63,089 nt of DNA from positions 1-63,089 of the forward strand of contig JABDBP010000007.1 of assembly GCA_013288565.1 (NCBI GenBank), given 5' to 3'. Positions within the stretch are counted from its first letter, which is position 1. The number at the start of each line of letters is the position of its first letter. A program made the translations under genes and the position numbers. Source of the stretch: Alphaproteobacteria bacterium. Lineage in GTDB: Bacteria > Pseudomonadota > Alphaproteobacteria > Rickettsiales > JABDBP01. The notes below the pieces were generated by a model. It ran no database searches. It was not told where the DNA came from and saw nothing but the letters and a program-made list of their open reading frames with translations. Positions 5,732 to 57,325 of this stretch are shown here, piece by piece.

Positions 5732-5852
5732 GATCTCGCTAGGCCGCAGCGAAAAAGTGGTTTTTTCGAGAACCGAAGCGCAGTGTACAAAAAAGTACAT
5801 GAGCATCGGAAGCGCAGAAAAACCACTTTTGCAGCGCGGCCTAGTAGAGATC
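5732..5852. repeat. Nested palindromic element (type A) between aguA and acnA
   Basis: Three nested inverted repeats are visible. The outer arms are GATCTCGCTAGGCCGC (5732-5747) and GCGGCCTAGTAGAGATC (5836-5852). The middle arms AAAAGTGGTTTTT (5753-5765) and AAAAACCACTTTT (5818-5830) are a perfect 13-bp match. The core hairpin is TGTAC-AAAAAA-GTACA (5784-5799), flanked by two direct copies of GAAGCGCAG. The outer right arm overlaps the acnA stop codon by 2 nt. The core GAAGCGCAGTGTAC recurs, slightly altered, in the element near 56330, suggesting a dispersed family. As it lies between converging genes it may also act as a two-way terminator (inference). Confidence 0.8.
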
Positions 5853-16748: not shown

Positions 16749-16833
16749 GAGTGCCTAGTTATGAGTGCCGAGTGCTGAGTGTAAATGCAGTGATAAGGTG
16801 CTCATCACTCTGCACTCTACACTAGGCACTCCT
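16749..16833. repeat. Heptad-repeat hairpin, radA/cvpA junction
   Basis: Left arm in exact 7-nt register (16749-16783): GAGTGCC, TAGTTAT, GAGTGCC, GAGTGCT, GAGTGTA. Right arm (16806-16833): CACTCTG, CACTCTA, CACTAGG, CACTCCT. The outermost 11 bp (GAGTGCCTAGT with ACTAGGCACTC) pair perfectly, and the inner units pair with few mismatches. The right arm encodes the last residues of RadA (ECLV, then the stop), so the repeat has invaded or grown into the gene end. Its position inside an operon suggests an effect on cvpA-purF readthrough (inference). Confidence 0.85.
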
Positions 16834-54141: not shown

Positions 54142-55005
54142 TTATTTCCTTAACCACCCACTCACCTCTTCCACTTGCGCCTCCTCCATCAGTGACGGCG
54201 CGTGACCAATGCCGGGAAATTCGATAAGGCGCGCGCGCGGACCGGTTTGGGTCATTTTTTCCGCCGTTTCCTCAGATAAAATATCTGATTCCGCGCCACG
54301 CAACAGCAAAACCGGGCAGGTGATTTTTTCCCAATATTGCCATAAATCCATGTCGGGAAAATCTTTCAAATTACCTTTTTCATCACGGAAAGCAGCCCCA
54401 ATGCCAGGATCATTGTTCATAGCGAATCCACCAGGAACCGCGTTTAGGCCATATTTCATCATATGCTCAAGCGCGAAATCATTGACCTTCCACGGGGAAT
54501 ATATTTTTTTGAAATGAACTTTAGCCGCCGCTACGTCCGGGAACGTTTCATTTTTCCCGGTATATTCGGCGATTCTTTTTAACGCCTCTTTTGTGATGAA
54601 CGGGCCAACGTCGTTTATCACCATTTTTCTGATCACTCCAGGTCGCAACGCCGCGACAATCATACCGATCAGCCCACCCATCGAAGTCCCGATCCAATAA
54701 ATTTCTTGCAACCGCAAAAAGCTGATCAATCGCAACATATCAACAGCATAGGTGAAATTATGATACCCGGATTTATCCTTGATCCATCCGCTTGTGCCGC
54801 GCCCAGCCACGTCCGGGCAGATGACCCGGAAATCCGGCATGAATCGACGTGCCAGGAAATCGAAATCGCGGCCGTTGCGCGTCATGCCATGCAGGCAGAA
54901 AATCACTTTTTTCGCCGCCACGTCACCCCAGCTCCAATAACCTACTATTCGCCCTGAGCCATCATTTTCGCGTACCAAAAAGCTGTATAATTGCGGCTCG
55001 GTCAT
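54142..55005 (-). CDS. Alpha/beta hydrolase
   Basis: A 287-residue alpha/beta-hydrolase-fold enzyme. The oxyanion region is FCLHGMTRNGRDFDFLA, the nucleophile elbow is WIGTSMGGLIGM (Ser), the acid is probably in LLRGAESDILS, and the His in FPGIGHAPSLM. The substrate cannot be deduced; relatives include esterases and C-C hydrolases. Its ATG overlaps the dadA stop by 4 nt, so it is co-expressed with a D-amino-acid dehydrogenase, a link that might be meaningful. Confidence 0.88.
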   Translation of the reverse strand: MTEPQLYSFLVRENDGSGRIVGYWSWGDVAAKKVIFCLHGMTRNGRDFDFLARRFMPDFRVICPDVAGRGTSGWIKDKSGYHNFTYAVDMLRLISFLRLQEIYWIGTSMGGLIGMIVAALRPGVIRKMVINDVGPFITKEALKRIAEYTGKNETFPDVAAAKVHFKKIYSPWKVNDFALEHMMKYGLNAVPGGFAMNNDPGIGAAFRDEKGNLKDFPDMDLWQYWEKITCPVLLLRGAESDILSEETAEKMTQTGPRARLIEFPGIGHAPSLMEEAQVEEVSGWLRK

Positions 55006-56243
55006 GATAACGTCAATCCTGTGAGGTCGATTTCCGCCGGTTTGTCGTCGATGAAATCAGCCAGAATCCTGGCGCTTCCGGCAGCCAAAGTCCAGCCCAA
55101 AGTCCCGTGCCCAGTGTTTAGGAAAAGATTCTTGAATTTCGTCCGGCCCAAAACCGGCGTGCCTCCCGGCGTAGAAGGACGCAGGCACGCCCATTTCGTG
55201 ACGTTCGCAAAATCCCCGGCTTCCGGGAAAAGATTTTTCGCATGGCGCAGAATCGAAGTCGTCCTGAATTCGTCGATAGACGTGTCATACTTGGCGAATT
55301 CCGCTGTTCCCGCCACGCGTAAAATATTGCCGAGTCGGCTGTAAACCAGTTTCTGCGATTGATCGGTGATGCTTACCTGCGGAGCTTTTCCAACATTCAC
55401 GGGAATCGAAACACTGTAACCTTTCATCGGGTATATATGGGTTTTGACGCCGAGTTTATTCAAAAAAACCGAGCTGTAAGAGCCGAGTGCGACGATATAT
55501 TTATCGGCAGTGAAAACGCCGTCGCCCGCCAGCACCCCGGAAACTTCGTCACCAACTGTGTCGATGCCTAATATTGCGTGATCATATTTGAACACTACGC
55601 CTATCGTCTGGCATTTTTTCGCGAGATGCCTGGTGAAGGCGAAAATATCGCCGCTCTCATCTAGCGGGAAATGGATGCCGCCTATAATGCGATCGTTGGC
55701 GGAAAGCAGCATTGGTTCCAGTTCCATGCATTCCTGATAAGTCATAGATTTATAGGACGCGCCGAATTCCTGCTGCATTTTGGCTTGCAAGAGCGCCGAC
55801 TCGAAGTTCTTGTCGTCTTTGAAAATATGCAGAATTCCAGCATCCCGGAACGCGAAATCCACGCCAGTTTTCCCGCGTAGGTATTTCATAATTTCACGCG
55901 AATAAAGCGCCAGGCGGAGCGTGTTGATGGTGTGGTACCGCGCACGCGCCTTGGTGCAATTCCTCAAGAAACGCAACCCCCAAAGCCACATTGCCAGATC
56001 AAAACCCGGATGCAAAACCAGCGGTGCATCTTTTCGCCCCAGCCATTTTACGATTTTCGGCAAGACTTCCGGGTTCGCCCAGGGTTCGGCATGGCAATAA
56101 CTGAGCTGGCCGCCGTTGGCGAAACTGGTTTCCATGCCGCTGCCGCTTTGACGCTCAATCACGGTCACTTCATGCCCGCGCTCCGCCAGAATATAGGCGG
56201 AAGTGACGCCGATCACGCCGCTGCCGAGAATAACGATTTTCAT
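55002..56243 (-). CDS. dadA: D-amino acid dehydrogenase, DadA family
   Basis: FAD enzyme oxidising D-amino acids (mainly D-alanine) to keto acids at the inner membrane; 413 residues. The N-terminal FAD loop is MKIVILGSGVIGVTSAYILAERGHEVTVIER (GxGxxG at residues 7-12), followed by ETSFANGGQLSYCHAEPWANP. The C-terminal flavin motif is NTGHGTLGWTLAAGSARILAD. Alanine racemase (11719-12765) could supply its substrate, but the two are far apart, unlike dadAX of E. coli. A large palindromic element lies upstream. Confidence 0.94.
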   Translation of the reverse strand: MKIVILGSGVIGVTSAYILAERGHEVTVIERQSGSGMETSFANGGQLSYCHAEPWANPEVLPKIVKWLGRKDAPLVLHPGFDLAMWLWGLRFLRNCTKARARYHTINTLRLALYSREIMKYLRGKTGVDFAFRDAGILHIFKDDKNFESALLQAKMQQEFGASYKSMTYQECMELEPMLLSANDRIIGGIHFPLDESGDIFAFTRHLAKKCQTIGVVFKYDHAILGIDTVGDEVSGVLAGDGVFTADKYIVALGSYSSVFLNKLGVKTHIYPMKGYSVSIPVNVGKAPQVSITDQSQKLVYSRLGNILRVAGTAEFAKYDTSIDEFRTTSILRHAKNLFPEAGDFANVTKWACLRPSTPGGTPVLGRTKFKNLFLNTGHGTLGWTLAAGSARILADFIDDKPAEIDLTGLTLS

Positions 56244-56257
56244 AGTTGGAATTTTTG

Positions 56258-56533
56258 TTATAGCCGATTAACCAAATATATTTGCATTTGTTGCGTGACG
56301 AAAATTGCTGCCCCGCTAGGAGAAGCGCGAAGAGCGCAGTTTACGCTCCGGTCGAGCGCTTCGACACCGCGGACAGCAATTTTCTCCGCAACCCTCGGGG
56401 CATGGGAAGAAATGAAAAAATTACGGCGTAAAAAATTTTCCATGTAGGGTAAACTACCTGCAAAATTTTTTACTTGTCCTTTTTTCATTTCTTCCTCCTG
56501 CAAATATAAATATATTAGGTTAATCGGCTATAC
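56258..56533. repeat. Composite nested palindrome between dadA and hisN-like gene
   Basis: This fills most of the 311-bp divergent spacer. Outer ends: TATAGCCGATTAACC (56259-56273) and its perfect complement (56518-56532). Inside are two separate hairpins. The first has perfect arms AAAATTGCTG / CAGCAATTTT (56301-56310, 56374-56383) around GAAGCGC / GCGCTTC and GAGCG / CGCTC. The second has perfect 15-bp arms GAAGAAATGAAAAAA / TTTTTTCATTTCTTC (56406-56420, 56480-56494) around a perfect 12-bp pair, GTAAAAAATTTT / AAAATTTTTTAC (56428-56439, 56462-56473), and GTAG-GGTAAA-CTAC. Folded, it is a three-way junction. Both promoters must lie in or beside it. Confidence 0.85.
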
Positions 56534-56554: not shown

Positions 56555-57325
56555 ATGAAAAAATGCCCTGAAGAATTCATCGATTTCGCCGGAAAACTCG
56601 CTGATATTTCCGGCCGTGTCATCCGGCGCTATTTCCGGCAGCCGAATGGCCTGTCTGCGAAAGACGATCTTTCGCCTGTCACCACCGCAGATTTAGAGGC
56701 GGAACAAGAAATGCGTATGGCCATCGCGGCGGCATACCCGGAACATGGCATAATCGGCGAGGAATTCGGGAACGTGCAAACAAAATCTGATTATACATGG
56801 ATGCTTGATCCCATCGATGGTACTGCTTCCTTTATGATCGGACGCCCAATTTTCGGCACCCTCATTTCGCTGCTGAAAAATGGAACTCCCATTCTCGGAA
56901 TCATCAACCAGCCGATAACGGCAGAAAGGTGGATAGGCGCGAACGGCCAATCCATTTTGAATGGCGAAAAAATTTCCACACGAAAAAACTTGCCGCTTTC
57001 CCAAGCGGTGCTCTGCACCACTTCGCCAGATTATTTGTTTTCTGAAAAGGCCAAAGAATTTTTCGCGAGCGTTAGCAAAAAAGCCAGGTATACGGTTTAT
57101 GGTGGCGATTGTTATTCGTATGGATTGCTGGCGGCTGGGCTGGTTGATGCGGTAATAGAATCTGGCCTGAAACCACATGACTTCTGTGCACTTCGGCCAA
57201 TTATCGAAGGTGCTGGCGGGGTTTTTGCCGATTGGCGTGGCCAGGAAATCACGTTAGATTCATCCGGGGACGTAATCGCAGCGGGAAACAGGAAATTGCT
57301 GGAGGAAATCCTTAAATCAGCCTAG
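56555..57325 (+). CDS. Inositol-monophosphatase-family phosphatase, probably histidinol-phosphatase HisN
   Basis: A 256-residue metal-dependent phosphatase. Metal ligands lie in IIGEEFGN (Glu) and WMLDPIDGTASF (DPxDGT), with the third motif in YSYGLLAAGLVDAVIE...LKPHDFCALRPIIEGAGG. The short loop IDGTASFMIGRPIFGTLISL fits HisN, the alphaproteobacterial histidinol-phosphatase, better than SuhB, but this is judged by eye. No other his genes are nearby. It is transcribed away from dadA and converges with the DsbA gene. Confidence 0.85.
   Translation: MKKCPEEFIDFAGKLADISGRVIRRYFRQPNGLSAKDDLSPVTTADLEAEQEMRMAIAAAYPEHGIIGEEFGNVQTKSDYTWMLDPIDGTASFMIGRPIFGTLISLLKNGTPILGIINQPITAERWIGANGQSILNGEKISTRKNLPLSQAVLCTTSPDYLFSEKAKEFFASVSKKARYTVYGGDCYSYGLLAAGLVDAVIESGLKPHDFCALRPIIEGAGGVFADWRGQEITLDSSGDVIAAGNRKLLEEILKSA

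Follow-up and report, generated by a model that had tools for sequence, protein, structure and literature searches.

A palindrome between two divergent genes

The window (the entire 63,089-nucleotide stretch of alphaproteobacterial DNA analysed here) contains a DAO-type oxidoreductase gene (55002-56243, minus strand) and an inositol-monophosphatase gene (56555-57325, plus strand), between whose starts lies a large palindrome (Table 1). Its outer repeat and the two hairpins enclosed by it are located where the first-pass annotation had placed them, but the outer stem is longer than claimed there, the 15 perfect base pairs forming part of a stem of ~32 bp. The palindrome is branched as proposed, although not as a three-way junction: owing to a fourth, small hairpin at the centre of the element, it has four arms. 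Folding of both strands, the check suggested at the time, gives strong support for structure. As RNA, the plus strand folds with -127 kcal/mol compared to -64 +/- 4.8 for shuffles (z -13.3) and the minus strand with z -12.1, while DNA parameters give z -11.4.

Hairpin A has an internal loop GCTAGGA / GACACCGC and an apical internal loop GCGAAG / GAGC; the corresponding loop in hairpin B is GGACAAGTA / TACGCCGTA. A covariance model of the hairpin derived from 65 arms (R2) matches the window at 56287-56403 on the plus strand and at 56389-56504 on the minus strand, confirming that both hairpins are homologous and inverted relative to each other. The element is laid out as two inverted end units of ~135 bp, each comprising a terminal repeat and a hairpin, that meet at the mini-hairpin.

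Table 1 Features of the palindrome and of a related hairpin in the window.
Feature	Position	Strand	Remarks
Solo-hairpin relative (5.7-kb element)	5739-5851	+	Ends CTAGGCC...GGCCTAG; R2 36.5 bits
Whole element	56258-56533	.	Core 56259-56532 (TATAG...CTATA); same-length copies in own genome
Left arm of outer terminal inverted repeat (P1)	56259-56290	+	Pairs with 56501-56532
Hairpin A	56290-56392	+	Motif sense on plus strand; R2 106.3 bits, E 1e-27 in window
Tiny central hairpin (CC..GG)	56393-56400	.	Symmetry centre; CC and GG nearly invariant in 65 arms
Hairpin B	56401-56501	-	Hairpin A motif on minus strand; R2 75 bits, E 8e-19
Right arm of outer terminal inverted repeat	56501-56532	+	Pairs with 56259-56290

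Since the divergent promoter region is occupied by the element, both neighbouring genes may be influenced by it. Sequences resembling promoters are found across or next to its edges, but these are weak and about as numerous as in shuffles. On the minus strand (56258-56488), an ORF of ~76 codons follows a strong AGGAGG site and stays open to the last bases of the element, its TAA stop being supplied by the terminal repeat. Comparable frames are open in the copies on contigs C9, C20 and C4 of the same genome (see below) and frameshifted or absent in those on C10 and C1. We rejected this Shine-Dalgarno-preceded ORF as a gene: across the family, 13 of 64 elements have one at p <= 0.05 relative to shuffles, a modest excess, and in others it is frameshifted or absent.

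The palindrome belongs to a dispersed family

The assembly from which the window is taken (1.34 Mb, 70% complete) holds five more copies of the same length that are detectable by DNA search (C9:27204-27479, C20:5047-5323, C10:45983-46258, C1:60076-60353 and C4:16201-16475), and a covariance model (R1) finds 16 elements with the hairpin motif in this genome, many of them matched in both hairpins. The aligned copies share the fold even though the sequences of their outer stems differ. Of the 36 pairs in hairpin A, 23 have changed on both sides in a compensatory manner among six own-genome copies, and this in a MAFFT alignment that was not fitted to the covariance model.

Outside this genome, searching 35 relatives from the order at the DNA level gave no matches, and the family becomes visible only with the structure model. 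R1 has matches in 16 of the 131 genomes from the order (own genome included). The order is alphaproteobacterial, the best matches of the window's aconitase being MAGs from that class. With R2, at E <= 1e-3, matches occur in 54 of 385 genomes at class level and in 102 of 398, about a quarter of the sample, at the level of the phylum (Pseudomonadota). Plasmids of Pseudomonas aeruginosa PA83, Azotobacter chroococcum and Halomonas carry full-length relatives in intergenic positions. Nearly all full copies measure 265-281 bp, nearly all phylum-level loci have the inverted pair of arms, and the role of P1 is kept in every full copy despite its differing sequence. The contexts, judged by a simple ORF test, are mixed (divergent, tandem and convergent), mostly intergenic, and frequently only a few bases away from an ORF boundary.

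The first-pass annotation had also considered a composite of two family members captured inside a third inverted repeat. This is contradicted by the recurrence of the whole unit (outer repeat, hairpin, mini-hairpin and inverted hairpin) in 64 elements with definable ends; the outer repeat has the character of a terminal inverted repeat. A candidate plasmid pair for the empty-site comparison had spacers that could not be aligned. The kinship with the 5.7-kb palindrome, on the other hand, holds. The core shared with it is above chance, R2 giving E 3e-10 in a 351-base search (~5e-8 when scaled to the whole window) and R1 35.7 bits with filters off. By DNA search this element is a single copy in its genome; similar solo forms occur at two other loci (L058 and L059).

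Several shorter sequences were noted as well. A 79-bp, internally deleted form at C11:28119-28197 (L014 720-798) consists of the outer stem only and adjoins a tRNA-like sequence, and two derivatives of 191 and 177 bp (L045 1469-1659 and L080 1529-1705) carry a single hairpin within the same terminal repeats. A solo terminal repeat, TTAGGTACTGTTAACA, is found in the window's own genome (G000) at C9:11607-11622 (L170), immediately before an AGGAGG-ATG gene start, and is possibly a relic that provides leader sequence. Finally, a 31-bp inverted repeat with 84% complementarity (GAGTGCCTAG...CTAGGCACTC) lies between two minus-strand genes at 16749-16831 of the window; it does not match the hairpin model and includes CTAGGCACT, which resembles the ends of the family.

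Element ends and their relation to IS5-family insertion sequences

The ends of the elements are clustered at TA. TAG is present at the left end of 39 of the 64 elements and at the right end of 43, compared to 3 and 4 of 64 in the flanks, and about half of the copies have TA at both ends. The outer-repeat termini of the pseudomonad-type copies match short stretches in Pseudomonas avellanae plasmids, and these stretches are the ends of an 863-bp IS5-family insertion sequence (IS) that encodes a transposase with DUF4096 and DDE_Tnp_1 domains. In one genome (G790), the element has the IS ends (CTAGGGTCTGTTCCCGTTTC) at both of its termini, with identity at 20 of 20 bases, and the ends of several other elements are close to them. 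The outer repeat corresponds to IS5-family ends in Pseudomonas-, Azotobacter- and Halomonas-type copies, that is, within the Gammaproteobacteria only.

Elements in the window's order commonly have the ends TTAGGCACTGTTARCA, and those of its own subgroup TATAGYC..., a sequence that presumably resembles the ends of Correia elements. A search for an IS with either the termini TTAGGCACTGTTARCA or the TATAGCC of the window gave none at IS distance. IS5-type transposases (PF13340 and PF01609, i.e. DUF4096 and DDE_Tnp_1) and Y1 transposases (Y1_Tnp) are both absent from the 70% complete own assembly. Among 12 relatives from the order, PF13340 was absent from all and PF01609 from 11, the remaining one matching below the cut-off. 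MITEs can outlive their IS, so that this absence weakens the IS5 claim for the window's copy while not excluding it. An IS5-type mobiliser is therefore supported for the gammaproteobacterial branch and can be extended only putatively to the window's copy, since no IS shares its ends and the assembly lacks the transposases.

Other candidates were discarded. PF13340 transposases in two genomes (G494 and G832) come without matching ends, and a Dolichospermum match to the terminal repeat of the order, with no transposase nearby, was judged to be due to chance. In two Azotobacter plasmids, near-identical IS630 copies (L207 2768-3954 and L209 1316-2504) sit exactly at the CTAG of an element end. Because they are inserted at opposite ends of the element, IS630 is a neighbour and not the mobiliser; the ends of the element serve as IS630 targets.

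Conservation of the folded interior

Two alignments were used to assess the fold across genomes, the second (A4) consisting of loci left out of model building; both are fitted to the model, which inflates the pairing. In the first (A3), 91.8% of cells are paired, against 62.8% in shuffled and 36-44% in slid controls, with 658 double-change cells compared to 167 in shuffles. For A4 the corresponding values are 92.3% against 54.2% and 32-42%, with 921 double-change cells compared to 279. The internal loops are likewise conserved, with the forms C[T/A]AGGA / GACG and GCA / AA. Several of the best conserved positions overall are unpaired, namely A and G in C[T/A]AGG, A and C in GAC, the second-loop A and the CC/GG at the centre; the A in column 32 is present in 64 of 65 arms. 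The mean advantage of unpaired over paired positions is small, however (0.76 vs. 0.72 bits).

In the stems, read in the direction of the motif, G-U pairs outnumber A-C mismatches 104:30 and 84:30 (~3:1), with the proviso that related copies are not independent; in A4, 40 sequences show the G-U bias and 7 the opposite. Because of this asymmetry, a folded single strand, either RNA or ssDNA, seems to be under selection. A structured RNA, as suggested earlier, is favoured by the covariation and the G-U bias, although the bias is expected for an ssDNA hairpin too and does not tell the two apart. The preservation of shape and key bases across the phylum suggests that the folded strand has a role of its own.

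A probable MITE family with a structured interior

We consider it likely that the window's element is one copy from a family of non-autonomous, IS5-type MITEs whose structured interior is unusually well conserved, that an IS5 transposase acting in trans mobilises it and that its hairpin is selected as a folded strand. The reading as a MITE is based on the family copies, the IS5-like ends in some lineages and the clustering of ends at TA. The elements are also short (below the ~400 bp usual for MITEs), lack a transposase gene and contain only short ORFs, and they combine terminal inverted repeats with multiple dispersed copies. IS5-family transposases of the DUF4096 + DDE_Tnp_1 type would act on the terminal repeats, and the element would have inserted at TA or CTAG. 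Given the inverted layout the motif is independent of orientation: the element being nearly its own reverse complement, either strand, or a transcript entering from either side, would present the motif sense first. On this view, selection would act on the hairpin in its single-stranded folded form, RNA being more likely, and the hairpin probably binds a factor from the host or one associated with the transposase.

It is unlikely that the family is instead a non-mobile, host-encoded structured RNA or regulatory element present in many genomes, with the outer stem merely a part of the RNA. The conserved loops, the covariation, the G-U bias and the intergenic positions, often a few bases from ORF ends, would all fit such an RNA, but it would not explain the scattered multi-copy presence, the mixed gene contexts, the plasmid copies, the identity of the outer repeat with IS5 ends in some lineages, or the near-perfect reverse-complement symmetry. 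A rather improbable explanation is that the elements are old MITE relics in which only template-switch correction or gene conversion between the arms keeps the palindromes perfect, giving structure without function. Template-switch correction can yield compensatory changes in long palindromes, and the own genome has no mobiliser. However, correction would erase mismatches, whereas unpaired loop positions (the column 32 A, GG and GAC) are conserved in distant genomes, and it does not account for the G-U over A-C asymmetry. Very improbable, finally, are ssDNA signals for a Y1/TnpA-REP-like or other single-strand transposase (REP/PATE-like): apical stems of the form GTAG..CTAC and mismatches in the hairpins are reminiscent of REP elements (PMC3733652) and the DNA fold is stable, but REPs are 20-40 bp, the own genome has no Y1_Tnp, and long terminal repeats with TA ends suit DDE transposases.

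More tentatively, the family could represent a phylum-wide mobile structured-RNA module: a hairpin with fixed internal loops, present as an inverted duplicate and thus read correctly in both directions, that is recognised by a conserved protein and has persisted by swapping its outer repeats to suit whichever IS5-type transposase is present. If so, it would amount to the bacterial counterpart of a SINE with its RNA fold under selection.

Comparison with known repeats

In most descriptions, bacterial MITE families are passive and limited to a genus. No Rfam family matches at its gathering score; the sub-gathering hits to plant and animal microRNA hairpins are weak and were judged to be due to chance, and a separate flanking tRNA is unrelated. 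The CIR elements of Caulobacter and Brucella likewise have two hairpin arms with a linker and occur in Alphaproteobacteria, but they carry GANTC in the terminal loop and have no end-to-end stem, whereas here GANTC is found in 0 of 65 and 1 of 68 apical loops and the outer stem is long. The Y1 transposase partner of REP/REPIN elements with RAYT is missing as far as the own genome is concerned.

MITEPsy1 of P. syringae is similar in its IS5-type ends, CTAG/YTAA-type target, small size and lack of coding capacity, but is 100 bp long with 18-bp ends, has no reported conserved double hairpin and is well conserved in only a few P. syringae pathovars (PMC3189936). Correia/NEMIS, RUP and RU-1/ERIC elements are also short, with TA termini, terminal inverted repeats and a stable RNA fold, but are described as single long stem-loops at genus level (PMC2229807), unlike the two inverted homologous hairpins with conserved loops found here across a phylum. 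The RPEs of Rickettsia share the palindromic form, a Rickettsiales-like setting and occasional open frames, yet they measure 105-146 bp (PMC2229807) and are often inside genes, whereas this family is ~270 bp long, mostly between genes and phylum-wide. QMITE1/2 of Coxiella, which are transcribed as small RNAs, have very stable folds too and are set apart, by description, by their TIRs and flanking repeats (PMC5896051).

While a MITE is a known kind of element, the combination of a double-hairpin interior conserved across the phylum with IS5-type ends that are lineage-specific seems to be new; we found no account of the family, but only of related kinds of element, in the part of the literature covered, which excludes most subscription journals and preprints. 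The retention of detailed structure and unpaired loops in Alpha- and Gammaproteobacteria, with outer repeats that differ by lineage, points to a shared binding factor or an RNA function. For annotators, the family adds a repeat found in about one in four of the sampled Pseudomonadota genomes.
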